Source: Actinomycetota bacterium (GTDB lineage Bacteria > Actinomycetota > Acidimicrobiia > Acidimicrobiales > Acidimicrobilacustridaceae). Taken from it: a DNA stretch of 33,016 bases. Within the stretch, counting starts at the first letter, position 1, and the number at the start of each line of letters is the position of its first letter. Made by a program: the position numbers and the translations under genes. The stretch is taken from the NCBI GenBank assembly GCA_009700115.1, contig WLMU01000013.1:1-33016 (forward strand), given 5' to 3'. The notes under the pieces were generated by a model, which saw only the letters and a program-made list of their open reading frames with translations, was not told the DNA's origin and did not search any database. This document shows, one piece after another, positions 10,785-19,838 of the stretch.

Positions 10785-11690
10785 ATGAGAGTTGCGTTTG
10801 TGACCACAAGTGATCTCGACGCGATCCATGATGATGTCGATCTTCCTTTGCAAATCGTTGCCTTTGCCAATGCCGGAATCGATCTTGTTCAAGCGGCGTG
10901 GGAAGACGAATCGGTGGCGTGGGATTCGTTCGATCTTGTTGTCGTGAGAAGCCCCTGGAATTACGTCAAGAGATTGAACGCGTTTCGAAAATGGCTTGGT
11001 GATCGGCGCGGGCTGACGACCTTTCACAATCCCGTCGAACTCATCGAATGGAATATCGACAAGCGCTATCTCGCGGATCTTGCCCATCAAGGGGTGCCGA
11101 TCGTTCCGACTGCCTTTGTCGATTCGATCGAAGAGTTTCATTCGGCGGCGCAATCTTTTGGCAGCGCGGAGATTGTGGTGAAACCTTCGGTGTCAGCAGG
11201 GAGCCGGTTGACGGGTCGCTATCTGAAGACTGATCGGGCGGCCGAAGTGCTGGCGAGTGAAATCTTGGCCAAAGGTCTGACGACGATGGTTCAGCCGTTC
11301 GCAGCGCGGATCGACGCTGAAGGTGAAATCGGAACGGTGCTGTTCGACGGGATGATTTCCCACTCGTTCAACAAAGCAGCGTTGCTCGCTGAAGGCGGTC
11401 AGCTCGTGGGCGGTGAGTATCAGGAGCAGATCACGTCAGTACAAACTCCCGACGATGTTCTGGTCGTTGTCGATGCTGCAGCGTCGGCAGCAACCGAGGT
11501 TGCTCGCGGGGCCGGTTGGATCTCGAAGGATCAGCAACTCCTCTATGGCCGATACGACGTGGTCCGACTCGATGACGGATCGCCTGCACTTCTGGAGGCG
11601 GAACTTTTCGAGCCGTGTTTCTTCTTACCGATCGACGTAGATGCTGCCGACCGATTCGTTGGCGCGGTTCTTCGTCGACTCAGCGCTTAA
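10785..11690 (+). CDS. ATP-grasp domain ligase (RimK / O-ureido-D-serine cyclo-ligase DcsG-like)
   Basis: MRVAFVTTSDLD...AAWEDESVAWDSFDLVVVRSPWNYVKRLNAFRKWL...NPVELIEWNIDKRYLADLAHQGVPIVPT...EIVVKPSVSAGSRLTGR; typical of this ATP-grasp family. Confidence 0.78.
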   Translation: MRVAFVTTSDLDAIHDDVDLPLQIVAFANAGIDLVQAAWEDESVAWDSFDLVVVRSPWNYVKRLNAFRKWLGDRRGLTTFHNPVELIEWNIDKRYLADLAHQGVPIVPTAFVDSIEEFHSAAQSFGSAEIVVKPSVSAGSRLTGRYLKTDRAAEVLASEILAKGLTTMVQPFAARIDAEGEIGTVLFDGMISHSFNKAALLAEGGQLVGGEYQEQITSVQTPDDVLVVVDAAASAATEVARGAGWISKDQQLLYGRYDVVRLDDGSPALLEAELFEPCFFLPIDVDAADRFVGAVLRRLSA

Positions 11691-11691
11691 T

Positions 11692-12498
11692 TCAGGAAGG
11701 GCTGGCGAGAGTGCCGCCAAAGATCTGCCAAGCGAGGGCGCTCTTCGCAACAAGGCTGAGAACGAGGTACACCTTTTCGCCATAGAGGTAGTCGGTGAAC
11801 TTGCCTTTGCCTCTGTACTGCAGCCACTGATTGAGAGCGAAGCAGTTGAACAAGAGGAACAGCGAAATCACGATGAAGTACACGAAGGTCGGAACACCTT
11901 CTGAGTTTGCCGGAACCCCGTTGATCATCGTGTTGTCAGTTGACGAAGTGACAAGCCCGATGACGATTGCGATCCACGGGACGATGCCGGCGATGCAACC
12001 AAAGATGAATGGCAACCAATTGACTGATTCGCGATTGCGATTGACTTGTTCCATGACCAGACCAAAAAGGATCATCGCGGCGTTCACGCCAAAGATGGCG
12101 ATGATGGCGTAGAGGTTGTTGATGCCATTCAAGAGTGCAATCAGCACGATCATGATTGACGCGCTCACGGAGTATTCGATCCAGCGCGCGTAGTTGATTC
12201 CATGGAGGAGGTTGCGCTCGTACCAAGAACGCAATGGAGTCACTGAGGTCAGCAAGTGATCGCCGGCGGCAAGAAACAAGAAGAGCGCGATAGCGATCGG
12301 AAAGTTGAAGTCAAAGAAATGCTTGGTTACTGAAAGAGATCCCTCGCCACCGGGCGGGCCGGTCATGACCGTTGCAACAATCGGAATGGCGAAAGAGGTG
12401 CTCAGAACAAGGATGAGGATGCCTTGCACAAGGTGCAGGCCACCAATACCGATGTTCCATTTGCGAAGGTTTGCGAGACGTTCTGTTTGATCAGCCAT
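11692..12498 (-). CDS. Heliorhodopsin (268 aa)
   Basis: RWIEYSVSASIMIVLIA (E108 counter-ion), AIFGVNAAMILFG, FGCIAGIVPWI, ISLFLLFNCFALNQWLQYRGKGKFTDYLYGEKVYLVLSLVAKSALAWQIFGGTL (K252 Schiff base); cavity His H22 and H81; closely resembles heliorhodopsin 48C12 recalled from memory. Confidence 0.96.
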   Translation of the reverse strand: MADQTERLANLRKWNIGIGGLHLVQGILILVLSTSFAIPIVATVMTGPPGGEGSLSVTKHFFDFNFPIAIALFLFLAAGDHLLTSVTPLRSWYERNLLHGINYARWIEYSVSASIMIVLIALLNGINNLYAIIAIFGVNAAMILFGLVMEQVNRNRESVNWLPFIFGCIAGIVPWIAIVIGLVTSSTDNTMINGVPANSEGVPTFVYFIVISLFLLFNCFALNQWLQYRGKGKFTDYLYGEKVYLVLSLVAKSALAWQIFGGTLASPS

Positions 12499-12504
12499 GG
12501 CTGG

Positions 12505-12510
12505 AGAGTA
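12505..12510 (-). promoter_or_regulatory. -10-like box TACTCT, 6 nt upstream of heliorhodopsin ATG
   Basis: Minus strand TACTCT-CCAGCC-ATG; fits the window-wide leaderless pattern. Confidence 0.4.
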
Positions 12511-12576
12511 TGCCGTCGCTGAAGGAAAGGGGTGGTTTCTTCGCCGAGGAGTCTCGGTATGGTGAACAATGACCCC

Positions 12577-13467
12577 ATGCAGGTACATCTGGTCGACGGC
12601 ACCTATGAACTCTTTCGCCACCACTTCGCGCTCCCATCGCGCGTAAATGACGATGGCATGGAAGTCGCAGCAACTCGCGGCGTGGTGATGTCGATGTTCA
12701 ACATGCTCGATGAAGGCGCGACTCACGTTGGCGTCGCTACTGATCGCACGGTGGATTCATTCCGCAACGCCATGTGGGATGGCTACAAATCGGGTGAAGA
12801 TCTTGATCCTGAATTAGGTAACCAGTTTCCGTTACTCGATGAAGCGTTGGATGCTGCTGGTTTCACCGTCTTCTCAATGATCGAACACGAAGCCGACGAT
12901 GGCATGGGTTCGGCTGCTGCGAGAGCTGCAGCCGATAAAAGTGTGGATCAGGTGCTCATCTGCACTCCCGACAAAGATCTTGCCCAGTGTGTAGTCGGAA
13001 GTCGTGTGGTCCAGTTCGATCGTCGCAAAGGCCAGATGTTTGATCACGATGGCGTGATCGAGAAGTTTGGCGTTCCACCGGAATCGATTCCCGATTACCT
13101 CGCATTGATGGGCGATGCATCGGATGGGTTCCCGGGTTTGCCTGGTTGGGGGGCAAAGTCAGCGTCAACAGTTCTCGGGCGCTATCTGCACATCGAACAT
13201 ATTCCTGCTGACCCCGAGAACTGGGATGTTCAGGTGCGAGGCGCGGCGAAACTGGCGGCAACGTTGCAGGAACAGATGGAACTTGCGATGTTGTTTCGGA
13301 AGATCGCCACCGTTGTGACCGATGCGCCGACATTCACAGAGGTCGATGAACTTCGCTGGACGGGACCGGAAGCGTCGTTCGCTGAAGTCGCGGCGCGCAT
13401 TGATTCGCCGCGTCTTGTTGAGCGGGCCCAGAAGTTGGCCCAGAAGTTGGCTCAGACGCGAAACTGA
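12577..13467 (+). CDS. 5'-3' exonuclease / PolI-N-like flap nuclease (standalone)
   Basis: MQVHLVDGTYELFRHHFALPS...VATDRTVDSFRNAMWDGYKSGE...EADDGMGSAAARAA...ICTPDKDLAQCV...DYLALMGDASDGFPGLPGWGAKSA (H3TH). Alternative ATG at 12559. Confidence 0.88.
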   Translation: MQVHLVDGTYELFRHHFALPSRVNDDGMEVAATRGVVMSMFNMLDEGATHVGVATDRTVDSFRNAMWDGYKSGEDLDPELGNQFPLLDEALDAAGFTVFSMIEHEADDGMGSAAARAAADKSVDQVLICTPDKDLAQCVVGSRVVQFDRRKGQMFDHDGVIEKFGVPPESIPDYLALMGDASDGFPGLPGWGAKSASTVLGRYLHIEHIPADPENWDVQVRGAAKLAATLQEQMELAMLFRKIATVVTDAPTFTEVDELRWTGPEASFAEVAARIDSPRLVERAQKLAQKLAQTRN

Positions 13468-13487: not shown

Positions 13488-13524
13488 TCGTCAGTTCTGG
13501 TGGCAGCGCCAACGGGCGCGAACC

Positions 13525-13731
13525 TCAGGAATCGGTCTTGTCGGTGGCTTCAGTGGCCTTGGCGTCGGTCGCCTTGGACTCGGGAGCGCCTTCTTTGAGG
13601 CCCTTTTCAAACTCACCCTTGGCCGAACCCAGCGATCGGGCGAGCTTTGGAAGTTTGGCGCCACCGAAAAGCAGGGCGATGATTGCGAGGACGATGACAA
13701 TGTCCCAACCGATGATTTCAGCGAGCACCAT
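13525..13731 (-). CDS. tatA: Sec-independent protein translocase subunit TatA
   Basis: MVLAEIIGWDIVIVLAIIALLFGGAKLPKLARSLGSAKGEFEKGLKE. Confidence 0.93.
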   Translation of the reverse strand: MVLAEIIGWDIVIVLAIIALLFGGAKLPKLARSLGSAKGEFEKGLKEGAPESKATDAKATEATDKTDS

Positions 13732-13868
13732 GTGGTGTCCTTCCTGCGCCGAGAGCGGCGATGAGGGGCTTGTGACACAAGGCTAGACCGCCGAACGAGT
13801 TCTCGGGTTATCGGTGTGTGGGCGGCCACTTTTCGGTGGCCAACCGTGGGCTGGGTAGTGTTGGCGCC

Positions 13869-15425
13869 ATGTCTGAACACCCAATGACCGAGCGCCTGGC
13901 CCAACTGGCCGAACTCAAAGAACAAGCCCTCCACGCCGGTTCGGAGCGTTCCGTTGAACGCCAGCATTCCAAGGGCAAGATGCTTGCCCGCGAGCGGCTC
14001 GACTATCTCTTGGACGAGGGTTCGTTCCACGAACTCGACATGCTCGCTCGGCATCGGGCCCATGAAAGTGGCATCGAAGAGCGCCCGTACACCGACGGTG
14101 TCGTCACCGGCTGGGGCACGATCGACGGTCGCAAGGTGTTTGTGTTCTCGCAGGACTTCACCGTCTTCGGCGGCGCACTTGGCGAGGTCTTCGCCGAGAA
14201 GATTCACAAGGTCATGGACCTCGCTCTGTCTGTTGGTGCACCGCTTATTGGTCTGAATGATGGCGCTGGTGCTCGTATTCAGGAAGGCGTGGTGTCGCTT
14301 GCCAGTTACGGCGGCATCTTCCATCGCAATGTTCTTGCCTCGGGCGTCACTCCACAGATCTCGGTAATCCTCGGCCCATGTGCCGGCGGCGCGGTATACA
14401 GCCCAGCCATGACCGATTTCATCTTCATGGTCGACGAAACCTCGCACATGTTCATCACCGGCCCCGATGTTGTGAAGACCGTGACCGGGGAAGAAGTCAC
14501 GCTCGAAGAACTTGGTGGCGCGAAGTCGCACGCGAGCAAGTCTGGTGTCGCAACCTTCGTTTCTCCGGACGAGAAGTCATGTCTCGACGACGTGAAGTAT
14601 CTGTTCTCGTTCCTTCCGTCGAATAATCTTGAGACAGCTCCAACGATGCCAACCGGCGACGATCCGCAACGCAGCTGTCCTGAACTGGTCGACATCATGC
14701 CGGCTAGCCCGAATATTCCGTACGACATGAAGAAGGTCATCGCGTCAGTTGTCGACGATGGCGACTTCTTCGAGTACTTCCCGCGGTGGGCTGGTTCCAT
14801 CGTGTGCGGATTCGCTCGTCTCAATGGTGAATCCGTCGGCATTGTCGGCAATCAGCCAATGGTGCTTGCTGGCGTACTCGACATTGAATCTGCAGAAAAG
14901 GGCGCACGTTTCGTGCGTACTTGCGATGCGTTCAATATTCCGCTCGTGACATTCGTCGACGTTCCCGGGTTCCTCCCAGGTGTCGATCAGGAATACGGCG
15001 GCATCATCCGCCACGGTGCCAAGTTGCTCTACGCCTTCTGCGAAGCAACTGTTCCTCGTATTCAGGTCATCACTCGTAAGGCCTACGGCGGCGCATATGT
15101 CGTTATGAATTCCAAGTCGATTGGTGCTGATCTCGCGTTTGCTTGGCCTTCGGCCGAACTTGCGGTTATGGGCCCCAATGGTGCTGTCGAGATTCTCTAT
15201 CGTCGCGAAATTCAAGGTGCGGCCGATCCCGAAAAGCGTCGTGCTGAACTCATCGATGATTACACCGAGCGGTTCGCGAACCCGTATATCGCTGCCGAGC
15301 GCGGTTTCATCGACGATGTCATCGATCCTGCTGACACACGTATGAAGATCATCGCTGGCCTCGAGATGCTCAAGTCCAAGCGTGAAGAACTTCCGCATCG
15401 CAAGCACGGGAATATCCCGCTGTGA
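13869..15425 (+). CDS. Acyl-CoA (propionyl-CoA-type) carboxylase beta subunit
   Basis: Carboxyltransferase motifs GLNDGAGARIQEGVVSLASYGGIF, VPGFLPGVDQEYGGIIRHGAKLLYAF, RKAYGGAYVVMNSKSIGADLAFAWPSAELAVMGPNGAVEI. Confidence 0.94.
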   Translation: MSEHPMTERLAQLAELKEQALHAGSERSVERQHSKGKMLARERLDYLLDEGSFHELDMLARHRAHESGIEERPYTDGVVTGWGTIDGRKVFVFSQDFTVFGGALGEVFAEKIHKVMDLALSVGAPLIGLNDGAGARIQEGVVSLASYGGIFHRNVLASGVTPQISVILGPCAGGAVYSPAMTDFIFMVDETSHMFITGPDVVKTVTGEEVTLEELGGAKSHASKSGVATFVSPDEKSCLDDVKYLFSFLPSNNLETAPTMPTGDDPQRSCPELVDIMPASPNIPYDMKKVIASVVDDGDFFEYFPRWAGSIVCGFARLNGESVGIVGNQPMVLAGVLDIESAEKGARFVRTCDAFNIPLVTFVDVPGFLPGVDQEYGGIIRHGAKLLYAFCEATVPRIQVITRKAYGGAYVVMNSKSIGADLAFAWPSAELAVMGPNGAVEILYRREIQGAADPEKRRAELIDDYTERFANPYIAAERGFIDDVIDPADTRMKIIAGLEMLKSKREELPHRKHGNIPL

Positions 15426-15625
15426 CCGACGCGTCGTCGAGCGTGCGCATCACGCCTGAACCGACCATTGAAGAAGCAGCAGCAATTGCTGCCGCTATTG
15501 AGATCACGCGACCTCGCATCATGGTGGGTCAGGAAGTTGAACCCGAAGCGCGCTGGCGCTTCAGCGGTCGCTGGTGGTCACGACCAGTGGCGTCGCGCCG
15601 GGCCCGTCCCGCCGCCCGCAGCTAG
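15422..15625 (+). CDS. Acyl-CoA carboxylase epsilon-like subunit
   Basis: Coupled (GTGA overlap) to the beta subunit; small protein PTIEEAAAIAAAIEIT...ARWRFSGRWWSRP matches the AccE/PccE pattern. Confidence 0.75.
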   Translation: MTDASSSVRITPEPTIEEAAAIAAAIEITRPRIMVGQEVEPEARWRFSGRWWSRPVASRRARPAARS

Positions 15626-16608
15626 TTCGCGCCGCCGAAAACCTTTATCGCTACCTCTCCGAGTTGTTCAATGCGCTCGGGGAGGGTGCCGTTCGCCGGC
15701 AGTGAAACGGTGACGCCATCGAGTCCGAGGTCTTTGACCTTTACAAACCATTCCTCGATCTCTTCCGATCCGCCCCACCACACGGCGGAGAGGAACATGT
15801 CGCGTGTGGCCTCGTCGACAGCGTCGAGATCGACGCCCATTCCGAGCATGTATGACTTGGCTTCTTGGTAGGCCTGATCGACTGTCGGGGCGATGACACA
15901 GAAACCCATCTTGCTGACGGTGATTTCGCTTCGATCGCGTCCGAGGCGTTCGCAATGTGCAGCGAGCGCTTCCATCTTTCGAGGGACCTCGTCGAGGCCG
16001 CAAGTGAAATTTGCTGAATCGGCGTATTGCGCAACCATGCGCAAGGTCTTCTTTTCGCCGGATCCGCCGATCATCACCGGGATTCGACTGATCGGCGCAG
16101 GCTGATTGATGGCATTGTCGACCGAATAATGCTTTCCGGCGAATGTGGGTCGTTCGTCGCGCAGCATCGGAAGAATGATCTGCAGTGCTTCTTCAAGTTT
16201 TTCGAATCGATCGGTGAAGGTGCCGAACTCGAATCCGAGTGAGTCGTGTTCGAGTTCGAACCAACCTGCACCGATACCAAGTTGAGCGCGACCACCCGAC
16301 ACGATGTCGAGTGTGGTGATTGTCTTCGCCAGGAGAGCAGGGTTCCGATAGGTATTGCCGGTTACGAGCGATGCAAGTCGAGCTTTCGTCGTGTGCTGTG
16401 CGAGAGCAGCGAGAGTTGAATAGCACTCGAGCATGTACTTCGAAGGCTCGCCCAGCATCGGTAGCTGGTAAAAGTGGTCCATCACCATGATCGTGTCGAA
16501 GCCGGAACGGTCAGCAGCAGCGGCTTGCTTAGCCACCGCGTCGAAGAGTTCAGCGGGGCCAACTCCGGGGTAGGTGAAGTTGGGAATCTGGTAGCCGATG
16601 CGAGTCAT
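15622..16608 (-). CDS. LLM-class F420-dependent oxidoreductase
   Basis: MTRIGYQIPNFTYPGVGPAELFDAVAKQAAAADRSGFDTIMVMDHFYQLPMLG...GRAQLGIGAGWFELEHDSLGFEFG; SD AGGAGG 5 nt before ATG. Confidence 0.9.
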   Translation of the reverse strand: MTRIGYQIPNFTYPGVGPAELFDAVAKQAAAADRSGFDTIMVMDHFYQLPMLGEPSKYMLECYSTLAALAQHTTKARLASLVTGNTYRNPALLAKTITTLDIVSGGRAQLGIGAGWFELEHDSLGFEFGTFTDRFEKLEEALQIILPMLRDERPTFAGKHYSVDNAINQPAPISRIPVMIGGSGEKKTLRMVAQYADSANFTCGLDEVPRKMEALAAHCERLGRDRSEITVSKMGFCVIAPTVDQAYQEAKSYMLGMGVDLDAVDEATRDMFLSAVWWGGSEEIEEWFVKVKDLGLDGVTVSLPANGTLPERIEQLGEVAIKVFGGAN

Positions 16609-16697
16609 GGTTCCTCCTGAGGTTCGATGAAGCGTAGACACTCGAGCGCCAATCGCATTGCCCCGAGTTCTGCGTTCCGCCCGTTAGCGTTTCAGTC

Positions 16698-17816
16698 GTG
16701 CCCAATCCACCCCTTTCCGATCTGCGTGTTATCGATATCTCGACGGTCCTGGCTGGGCCTGGTTGCGCACGACACTTGGCCGACTTTGGCGCCGACGTCA
16801 TCAAGGTCGAGCGCCCAGGTACTGGTGACACGGTTCGTGACATGGGATGGCGAGATCCATCCGATGACGTCACGTTGTTCTGGAAGATGGTCGGGCGTGG
16901 AAAGCGCACGATTGTTCTCGATCTGAAATCTGAAGACGGGGTTTCAGTTCTGCGCAAGTTGCTCGAGACCGCCGATGTTCTTGTCGAGAATTTTCGTCCG
17001 GGGAAACTCGAAGCGCTTGGGCTCGAACCTGAAGTTCTGCTTGCGGTGAATCCCAAACTTGTGATCACTCGCGTGACGGGCTTTGGTCAGACTGGTCCAT
17101 ACCGAGATCGGCCCGGATTCGCATCGATTGCCGAAGCGATGTCGGGCTTCGCCAACGTCAACGGTGAACCCGACGGCGGACCAACGCTTCCACCTATTGC
17201 GTTGACCGATGAAGTGACGGCAATCGTTGCAGCCTTTGCCACCATGGTTGCGGTGCATTCAGGTGTGGGTCAGGTCGTCGATGTGAACCTTCTTGAATCC
17301 ATGCTGCATTTGATGGGTCCGCTTGTATCTGCAAATGCACTCACTGGCTATGAACAGCCTCGACTTGGTTCAGGAATTCCTTACACAGTGCCGAGAAAGA
17401 CCTACGAATGTGCTGACGGCAAGTGGGTGGTTGTCTCAGCAACCGCAGAGTCAGTGGCTCAGCGATTTATGGCAATGGTCGGTGTCACCGAAGATCCGCG
17501 ATTCAAAGGATTCGAGAATCGAGTGGCCAACCGAGAACTTATCGACCAAATCGTGGGCGACTGGGTCGGCGAACGAACGCTTGAGCAAGTGCTCGATGAA
17601 GCGGAACGTGCAGAAGTCGCCGTTGCTCCCGTCTACACAATGACTGATGTTGTGAATGATCCGCATCTTCGAGAGCGCAACGCGATTGTCGATGTTGACG
17701 GTGTCCCGATGCAGAACGTCATCGCACGTTTGTCGGAAACTCCCGGCAGCATCAGATTTGCAGCACGAGCACTTGGCGAAGATACCGAAGCTGTGATCGC
17801 TGAACTGAACGACTAG
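16698..17816 (+). CDS. CaiB/BaiF-family CoA transferase
   Basis: LSDLRVIDISTVLAGPGCARHLADFGADVIKVERPGTGDTVRDMGW...LKSEDG...ENFRPGKLEALGL; GTG start. Confidence 0.93.
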   Translation: MPNPPLSDLRVIDISTVLAGPGCARHLADFGADVIKVERPGTGDTVRDMGWRDPSDDVTLFWKMVGRGKRTIVLDLKSEDGVSVLRKLLETADVLVENFRPGKLEALGLEPEVLLAVNPKLVITRVTGFGQTGPYRDRPGFASIAEAMSGFANVNGEPDGGPTLPPIALTDEVTAIVAAFATMVAVHSGVGQVVDVNLLESMLHLMGPLVSANALTGYEQPRLGSGIPYTVPRKTYECADGKWVVVSATAESVAQRFMAMVGVTEDPRFKGFENRVANRELIDQIVGDWVGERTLEQVLDEAERAEVAVAPVYTMTDVVNDPHLRERNAIVDVDGVPMQNVIARLSETPGSIRFAARALGEDTEAVIAELND

Positions 17817-17825
17817 TCGTAAGTC

Positions 17826-19838
17826 TTAGCGACGAGTCTCGATAACAAGATCGGCGATATCGCTCATGATGTGGCCGAGTTCAAAGTCTTTTGGTGTGTA
17901 GACGCGAGCTACACCAGCTTTGAGCAACGTCAGTCGGTCATCTTCGGGGATAATCCCGCCGACAATGACGGGGCAGGTCACACCTTCGGCACGAAGTCGT
18001 TCCACCACATCGGGGACGAGTTCCAGATGGCTACCCGAAAGAATCGAAAGCCCAACCACGTCGACATCTTCGTCTCGGGCCACTGCTGCGATCTGGGCAG
18101 GGGTGAGACGGATGCCTTGATAGATAACTTCCATGCCGGCGTCGCGTGCTGCGACCGCGATCTGTTCGGCGCCATTCGAATGTCCGTCGAGACCGGGCTT
18201 TCCCACTAACAATCGTGGGGGACCACCAGGCATCGCCTTTACTCGTTCGGCAACTACTCGGAGATCTTCAGGCAATGTGCCGACACCAGCGGCAGCAGAC
18301 ACGCCTGTCGGAGCTCGGTATTCGCCGAAGACGTCGCGCAGTGCGCCTGCCCATTCGCCCGTAGTGCCGCCGGCGAGGGCCAACGCGATAGTCGCGCCCA
18401 TGATGTTTTCATCGGTGTTGGCGACTCGACGAAGTTCAGCAAGTGCCGATTCGACCGCAGCGCTGTCGCGTTCGTCGCGCCACTTCTCGACCTCGGCAAC
18501 TGTCTGGGCTTCAAGTGCTGGATCGACTCGAAGAATGGATTCATCGCCAGCAAGTGGCGACTCGGCCGCCTCGGTGAACCGATTGACGCCAACAACAACT
18601 TGTTGGCCAGTCTCGATGCGGCGGACTCGTTCGGTGTTTGAAGAAACGAGGCGGCCCTTGAGTTCTTCGATAGCGGCGAAGGCGCCACCCATTGCAAGAA
18701 CTTCATCGAGTTCGGCCTGAGCGGCGGTCACGAGCTCATCGGTAAGTCCCTCGATGACGTGTGAACCGTTGAAGATGTCGTCGTATTCAAGTAGATCGGA
18801 TTCAAACGCAAGAACCTGCTGCATACGCAGCGACCACTGCTGATCCCACGGGCGGGGAAGACCGAGGGCCTCGTTCCATGCGGGCAACTGCAATGAGCGC
18901 GCACGAGCATCTTTTGAGAGTGTGACGCCAAGCATTTCGAGAACGATTCGTTGCACATTGTTTTCCGGCTGAGCTTCGGTGAGTCCGAGAGAGTTCACCT
19001 GCACGCCGTATCGGAATCGCCGGGCTTTCGGATCAGTGACGCCGTATCGCTCAAGGCAGATCTGATCCCACATTTTGGTGAAGGCCCGCATTTTGCACAC
19101 TTCTTCGACGAAACGAATGCCCGAGTTCACAAAGAACGAAATCGATGCAACGACGGCAGGCATTCGGTCGGCGGGAACTTGGCCGCTGTCTCGAACGGCA
19201 TCAAGTACGTCGATAGCAGTTGCGAGTGAGAACGCGATTTCCTGAACGGGAGTGGCTCCTGCTTCTTGCAGGTGGTAGCTGCAAACGTTCATTGGGTTCC
19301 AGGCAGGGATGTTTTCTGAACACCAGGCCACCATGTCGACAATCAGGCGACGCGAAGGGATCGGAGGGAAGATGTACGTGCCTCGTGACAAGTACTCCTT
19401 CACGATGTCGTTTTGCGTTGTGCCGCGCAGTTCCGAAGACGCAACACCATTCTCTGACGCGTACGCAACATAAAGAGCGAGCAACCACGCTGCAGTTGCG
19501 TTGATCGTCATCGAGGTATTCATGCCCCCGACGGGAATGCCCTCGAGTAGTTCGCGCATGTGACCGAGTTCGGCCACCGGTACTCCGACCTTTCCGACCT
19601 CGCCGCGTGCACGGGGATCATCCGGGTCGTAGCCCGTTTGAGTCGGGAGATCGAAGGCAATGGAGAGACCGGTTTGGCCCTTGGCCAGATTCGTCCGGTA
19701 CAGCTCATTCGAGGCGCGTGCGGTCGAATGCCCTGAGTAGGTGCGCATCATCCACGGCCGATCAGCTGATCGGATGGAATCTCCGGAGGGGGTCGTACTC
19801 ATTTCCCCATGCTCGCCCACTGAAGGTGGTGTTGTCAC
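17826..19838 (-). CDS. ecm: Ethylmalonyl-CoA mutase (MeaA/Ecm-type, B12-dependent)
   Basis: RPWMMRTYSGHSTARASNELYRTNLAKGQTGLSIAFDLPTQTGYDPDDPRARGEVGKVGVPV and C-terminal B12 domain KPGLDGHSNGAEQIAVAARDAGMEVIYQG; resembles actinobacterial MeaA/Ecm. Alternative ATG at 19802. Confidence 0.88.
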   Translation of the reverse strand: MTTPPSVGEHGEMSTTPSGDSIRSADRPWMMRTYSGHSTARASNELYRTNLAKGQTGLSIAFDLPTQTGYDPDDPRARGEVGKVGVPVAELGHMRELLEGIPVGGMNTSMTINATAAWLLALYVAYASENGVASSELRGTTQNDIVKEYLSRGTYIFPPIPSRRLIVDMVAWCSENIPAWNPMNVCSYHLQEAGATPVQEIAFSLATAIDVLDAVRDSGQVPADRMPAVVASISFFVNSGIRFVEEVCKMRAFTKMWDQICLERYGVTDPKARRFRYGVQVNSLGLTEAQPENNVQRIVLEMLGVTLSKDARARSLQLPAWNEALGLPRPWDQQWSLRMQQVLAFESDLLEYDDIFNGSHVIEGLTDELVTAAQAELDEVLAMGGAFAAIEELKGRLVSSNTERVRRIETGQQVVVGVNRFTEAAESPLAGDESILRVDPALEAQTVAEVEKWRDERDSAAVESALAELRRVANTDENIMGATIALALAGGTTGEWAGALRDVFGEYRAPTGVSAAAGVGTLPEDLRVVAERVKAMPGGPPRLLVGKPGLDGHSNGAEQIAVAARDAGMEVIYQGIRLTPAQIAAVARDEDVDVVGLSILSGSHLELVPDVVERLRAEGVTCPVIVGGIIPEDDRLTLLKAGVARVYTPKDFELGHIMSDIADLVIETRR

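Follow-up and report, generated by a model that had tools for sequence, protein, structure and literature searches.

What a heliorhodopsin (HeR) may do in a freshwater acidimicrobial genome, where it obtains its retinal and with which partner it works were the questions raised by the locus at positions 11692–12498 of contig WLMU01000013.1. The window, which is the whole stretch of 33,016 nucleotides that was analysed, adds one more heliorhodopsin to a known family; its value lies in the surrounding pattern. Worth following is the combination of a HeR fixed throughout the sampled genus with missing carotenoid and retinal synthesis and with no operon partner in the window.

Identity, structure and relatives of the heliorhodopsin

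The HeR coding sequence was located at 11692..12498 on the minus strand. It comprised 268 amino acids, with the ATG at 12498 and the stop codon at 11692–11694. A preliminary description had placed a complete heliorhodopsin of 268 amino acids at exactly these coordinates and had given no strand. On the minus strand, 11692–12498 was one open reading frame of 268 codons, and reading of the plus strand was rejected because it was interrupted by stops. An alternative GTG start, which would extend the protein to 344 amino acids, was also rejected since the relatives align from the 268-aa ATG. It was further disfavoured by the N-terminal motif MxDxxxRLxNLRxW, conserved from this ATG onwards, and by a TAnnnT signal situated 6 nt before it.

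The search against family profiles that had been proposed earlier gave a strong match. PF18761 was matched far above chance, with E = 6.7e-95 and 317.5 bits (cutoff 26.7) and full coverage of the model (1–242 of 242). The NCBIfam HeR equivalog NF038020 scored 301.8 bits (cutoff 100), covering model positions 1–244 of 244. The protein gave no match to PF01036, the type-1 rhodopsin family. Only one heliorhodopsin was present in the genome bin. The gene is a genuine, intact, single-copy heliorhodopsin of a well-described family, in agreement with the preliminary description, and the protein itself is ordinary, with nothing unusual. The concern that a gene caller might mislabel it carries little weight, as the dedicated Pfam and NCBIfam models were easily passed; because of these matches, automatic annotation would name the HeR correctly.

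Alignment with 48C12, whose residue numbers were counted on the printed alignment, paired H22 with H23, H81 with H80, E108 with E107, S248 with S237 and K252 with K241. The codon of the Schiff-base lysine K252 lay at 11743..11745 (minus strand) and that of the counter-ion E108 at 12175..12177 (minus strand). H22, H81, E108 in RWIEYS, and S248 and K252 in SLVAKSALAWQ had all been named beforehand and were found at these residue indices; the equivalence of E108 to the 48C12 counter-ion and the position of S248 one turn before the Schiff-base lysine held in the alignment as well. The SxxxK motif (S248/K252) with the Schiff-base lysine in helix 7 was thus present, together with the counter-ion glutamate of RWxEYS in helix C and the pair of cavity histidines. 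Conservation was assessed across 97 HeRs, i.e., 96 full-length locus sequences, some of them mutual duplicates, and 48C12. R105, W106, E108, Y109, S112, Y244, S248, K252 and W257 never varied in this set, and the cavity histidines were retained in 94/97 (H22) and 95/97 (H81). Values of dN/dS against 14 relatives were 0.04–0.13, with 0.064 for the closest pair and with synonymous sites near saturation in most pairs; based on this range, the HeR is under strong purifying selection.

The AlphaFold2 model, calculated from a 43-sequence alignment, had a mean pLDDT of 89.6 and a pTM of 0.86. Its ten best PDB matches were all heliorhodopsins, with TM scores of 0.84–0.87, rmsd values of 2.0–2.9 Å and 42–47% identity. 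The first rhodopsin outside this family among the PDB matches followed with E = 1e-3 and an rmsd of 7.3 Å. DSSP assigned seven helices and AB-loop strands to the model as in solved HeRs. The structural comparison with 48C12 suggested in the preliminary description returned the same fold (PDB 6su3, 6su4, 6uh3, 9ljj; TM 0.84–0.87, with 0.87 to 6su3_A; 45–47% identity in the structural alignment). The Schiff-base lysine, counter-ion glutamate, cavity histidines, SxxxK motif and AB-loop strands are shared with 48C12. The sole anatomical peculiarity is the extracellular E–F loop, which is about 9 residues longer than in 48C12 (TDNTMINGVPANSEG). This long loop is common to most of the genus and is absent from 48C12, the basal congener G020 and other genera of the family. 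The best structural match was TaHeR of Thermoplasmatales archaeon SG8-52-1 (PDB 6is6, 7u55, 7clj), with an rmsd of 2.0 Å and 43% identity; its counter-ion is also numbered E108. Unlike the window HeR, TaHeR is archaeal and sits on a more distant branch, with 12 aligned residues fewer in the loops. Lysine and arginine residues numbered 11 in predicted cytoplasmic segments versus 1 in extracellular segments. The topology is predicted to be inverted with the N-terminus inside, for which this sequence-based charge count is as expected and gives an indirect indication, and the AB-loop strands in the model would fit such an orientation too.

In the HeR tree, the window sequence grouped with those of its congeners (support 100/99 and 100/97). 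The closest sequences were HeRs from freshwater Acidimicrobiia MAGs, with identities of 95% (L002), 91% (L003) and 79–87% (L004–L013). They belong to the same genus-level clade and mostly share the gene neighbourhood, whereas some of these MAGs carry additional HeR-proximal genes that the window lacks, namely the A–B module and a short-chain dehydrogenase/reductase (SDR) described below. Named relatives were metagenome bins labelled Acidimicrobiia, Acidimicrobiales, Microthrixaceae or Actinomycetota, and many of them are apparently derived from lakes. The window would accordingly stem from an acidimicrobial bacterium of fresh water. Three loci (L004, L014 and L016) stem from public records named Bifidobacterium breve. 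They showed an acidimicrobial locus with the same synteny and a HeR identity of 71–88%, and their species labels look wrong.

Gene neighbourhood and expression signal

Both neighbours of the HeR gene were encoded on the opposite strand, and no co-directional partner directly adjoined it in the window. The convergent neighbour (10785..11690, plus strand) was an ATP-grasp protein resembling D-cycloserine synthetase DcsG, with a match to NF058666 (E = 1.7e-72) whose 244 bits were below the cutoff of 360. Its stop codon was 1 bp from that of the HeR. The divergent neighbour (12559..13467, plus strand) was a 5′–3′ exonuclease of the PolI N-terminal type, supported by PF02739 (E = 1.7e-31) and PF01367 (E = 2.1e-20). 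Its start may be at 12559 or at 12577, approximately 60–80 bp from the HeR. The order ATP-grasp, HeR, exonuclease was retained in most congeners. A functional link of the HeR to either gene was rejected, as both are encoded opposite to it and do not adjoin it in G008 or in other genera; the arrangement is therefore regarded as genus-level synteny and not as a functional unit. In G008, the HeR locus (L085, G008:C72) had quite different surroundings: a response regulator lay upstream, and an SDR gene was oppositely oriented. The HeR has thus moved within the genus. By adjacency, the window HeR fitted none of the HeR operon classes (glutamine synthetase, photolyase, ABC transporter, SDR and others). 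Further genes near the HeR, at 13491–19838, encoded proteins resembling an acyl-CoA carboxylase beta subunit, CoA-transferase III, a luciferase-like monooxygenase and a protein similar to methylmalonyl-CoA mutase; this looks like ordinary acyl-CoA metabolism.

Scanning for a standard sigma-70 promoter and a terminator at the HeR detected nothing. A −10-like TAnnnT signal, TACTCT, was present at 12505..12510 (minus strand), 6 nt before the HeR ATG, as a conserved upstream motif. Among HeRs at least 65% identical to that of the window, the arrangement TAnnnT-N6/7-ATG occurred in 15/16 distinct upstream regions, and the remaining upstream DNA was not conserved. The signal was kept even where a co-directional gene ended 32–59 nt upstream of the HeR. 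In leaderless actinobacterial genes, the TAnnnT signal begins about 12 nt upstream of the start codon (PMC3160421); the HeR signal, with its first T at −12, matches this spacing. Based on the conserved signal, the HeR is most likely transcribed on its own as a leaderless mRNA.

Chromophore supply

The genus sample comprised 21 genomes, i.e., the genome of the window, a bin of 85% completeness, and 20 congeners. HeR was present in 21/21, partial genes at contig ends included. Phytoene/squalene synthase (PF00494) was detected in 0/21 and the retinal-forming BCD/Blh likewise in 0/21. An RPE65-type oxygenase occurred in 5/21 genomes; none was found in the genome of the window. As 10/21 genomes were at least 90% complete, missing sequence is no explanation for the absent carotenoid genes. 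A type-1 rhodopsin was present in 8/21 genomes (G001, G002, G004, G007, G014, G015, G016 and G020). These congeners also lacked phytoene synthase and BCD, so two retinal proteins there would need retinal from outside.

Across the order, 67/248 genomes encoded HeR. PF00494 was present in 19 of these 67 and absent from 48, while BCD was restricted to three (G093, G098 and G241) and absent from 64. Phytoene synthase occurred in 19/67 genomes with HeR versus 81/181 without it, an odds ratio of 0.49 (p = 0.02, uncorrected for relatedness). HeR and phytoene synthase are not positively coupled in this order.

Other freshwater actinobacteria with HeR have been proposed to depend on retinal from outside the cell (PMC12422013). 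In the HeR-bearing Luna-1 actinobacteria, described as dependent in this way, most genomes have HeR without Blh, like the genus described here. Unlike this genus, with phytoene synthase in 0/21 genomes, Luna-1 mostly retain crtB/crtY (82–83%; PMC12422013). Aurantimicrobium minutum makes retinal despite having no known retinal-forming gene (PMC7734400), and by this counter-example the absence of known genes is no proof of retinal auxotrophy. With no known genes for carotenoid or retinal synthesis in the genome or the genus, the cell most likely acquires the chromophore of the HeR from its environment. If true, the HeR of these lake bacteria relies on other organisms for its retinal. An unlikely reading goes further: a genus with a fixed HeR would have lost or never had the known carotenoid and retinal synthesis, and its sensor would respond to light only in the presence of retinal from other plankton. 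In effect, the HeR would then sense light and neighbour-derived retinal jointly.

Proposed function and candidate partners

Altogether, the locus probably encodes a functional single-copy HeR, expressed from its own leaderless promoter, that acts as a light sensor or regulator on scavenged retinal, with its partner encoded elsewhere. From what is known of the family, all-trans retinal would be bound at K252 with E108 as counter-ion. Light would isomerise the retinal and the Schiff-base proton would then move within the protein. The slow photocycle typical of the family may alter the cytoplasmic loops, through which the signal could reach a partner in the cytoplasm or membrane whose gene lies at another locus. 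By family analogy, the protein would sense light or act as a regulator and would not pump ions.

As to the partner, the HeR might serve a single enzyme as its dedicated helper, binding and modulating it; in this genome, the enzyme would be an unlinked one such as the photolyase. This tentative explanation is rather unlikely, although partners have been documented for HeRs elsewhere, namely glutamine synthetase, CPD photolyase and an ABC transporter (PMC9529153, PMC9769723, PMC11109279), and the HeR of Trichococcus was reported to enhance photolyase (PMC9769723). The cytoplasmic loops of the window HeR carry positive charges, and a photolyase/cryptochrome-type protein is encoded in the genome (G000:C51) and in 21/21 congeners. 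Against this, photolyase was present in 34/37 genomes of the family, including most of those without HeR. Being near-universal in the family, its co-occurrence with HeR is uninformative. Moreover, the documented partner photolyase belongs to CPD class II, whereas the protein here was placed only as photolyase/cryptochrome-type, and neither photolyase, glutamine synthetase nor any co-directional partner adjoins the window HeR.

Another candidate came from the loci of the congeners. Protein A is exported and combines a PqqD-like domain with a membrane segment, a bacterial Ig domain and, at its C-terminus, a conserved tail (TPKYTG/APTFTG); protein B is a 2OG-Fe(II) oxygenase. The A–B pair lies between exonuclease and HeR and has the same orientation as the HeR in G004, G005, G019 and G020. 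The modules were found upstream of and co-directional with the HeR at L005:42-1519, L009:1508-3003, L014:4461-5943 and L018:4453-5941. In these congeners, B ends 32–59 nt before the HeR, and all full-length copies of B found in the genus sit at the HeR. No description of the A–B/HeR neighbourhood was found in the literature searched. An SDR-family oxidoreductase was located directly downstream of the HeR at L012:6783-7517 and L013:6780-7514, and SDRs have been published as one of the recurrent neighbours of HeR (PMC11109279). In both loci, the apparent start of the SDR gene coincides with the HeR stop codon or slightly precedes it, which suggests translational coupling of the two genes.

It is improbable that the HeR works with the A–B module or the adjoining SDR and that the lineage of the window lost, or never had, this partner. 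A and B are absent from the window, no copy was found in the rest of its genome bin, they are scattered patchily over the HeR tree, and they evolve much faster than the HeR, with 35–60% identity of B where the HeRs share 71–87%. Even downstream of B, the HeR retains a promoter signal of its own, and A–B pairs occur without an adjoining HeR in another genus (G035). The patchy 2OG-oxygenase/PqqD and SDR neighbours are nevertheless concrete candidate partners in the congeners, for a protein family whose targets are mostly unknown.

Light-driven proton transport, as in the giant-virus V2HeR3, is very improbable for the window HeR. This one viral heliorhodopsin is reported to transport protons (PMC9448325), and the PF01036 search yielded no type-1 rhodopsin anywhere in the genome of the window. 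On the other hand, bacterial HeRs tested so far did not pump (PMC11109279), and the window HeR lies within the bacterial HeR radiation, with 42–47% identity to 48C12 and TaHeR. Scarcely credible is an apoprotein devoid of light function and retained for another reason in a cell unable to make retinal: phytoene synthase, BCD and RPE65-type oxygenase were indeed not found in this genome, but the Schiff-base lysine, the counter-ion and the residues of the cavity are conserved under strong purifying selection, which is hard to explain without retinal.
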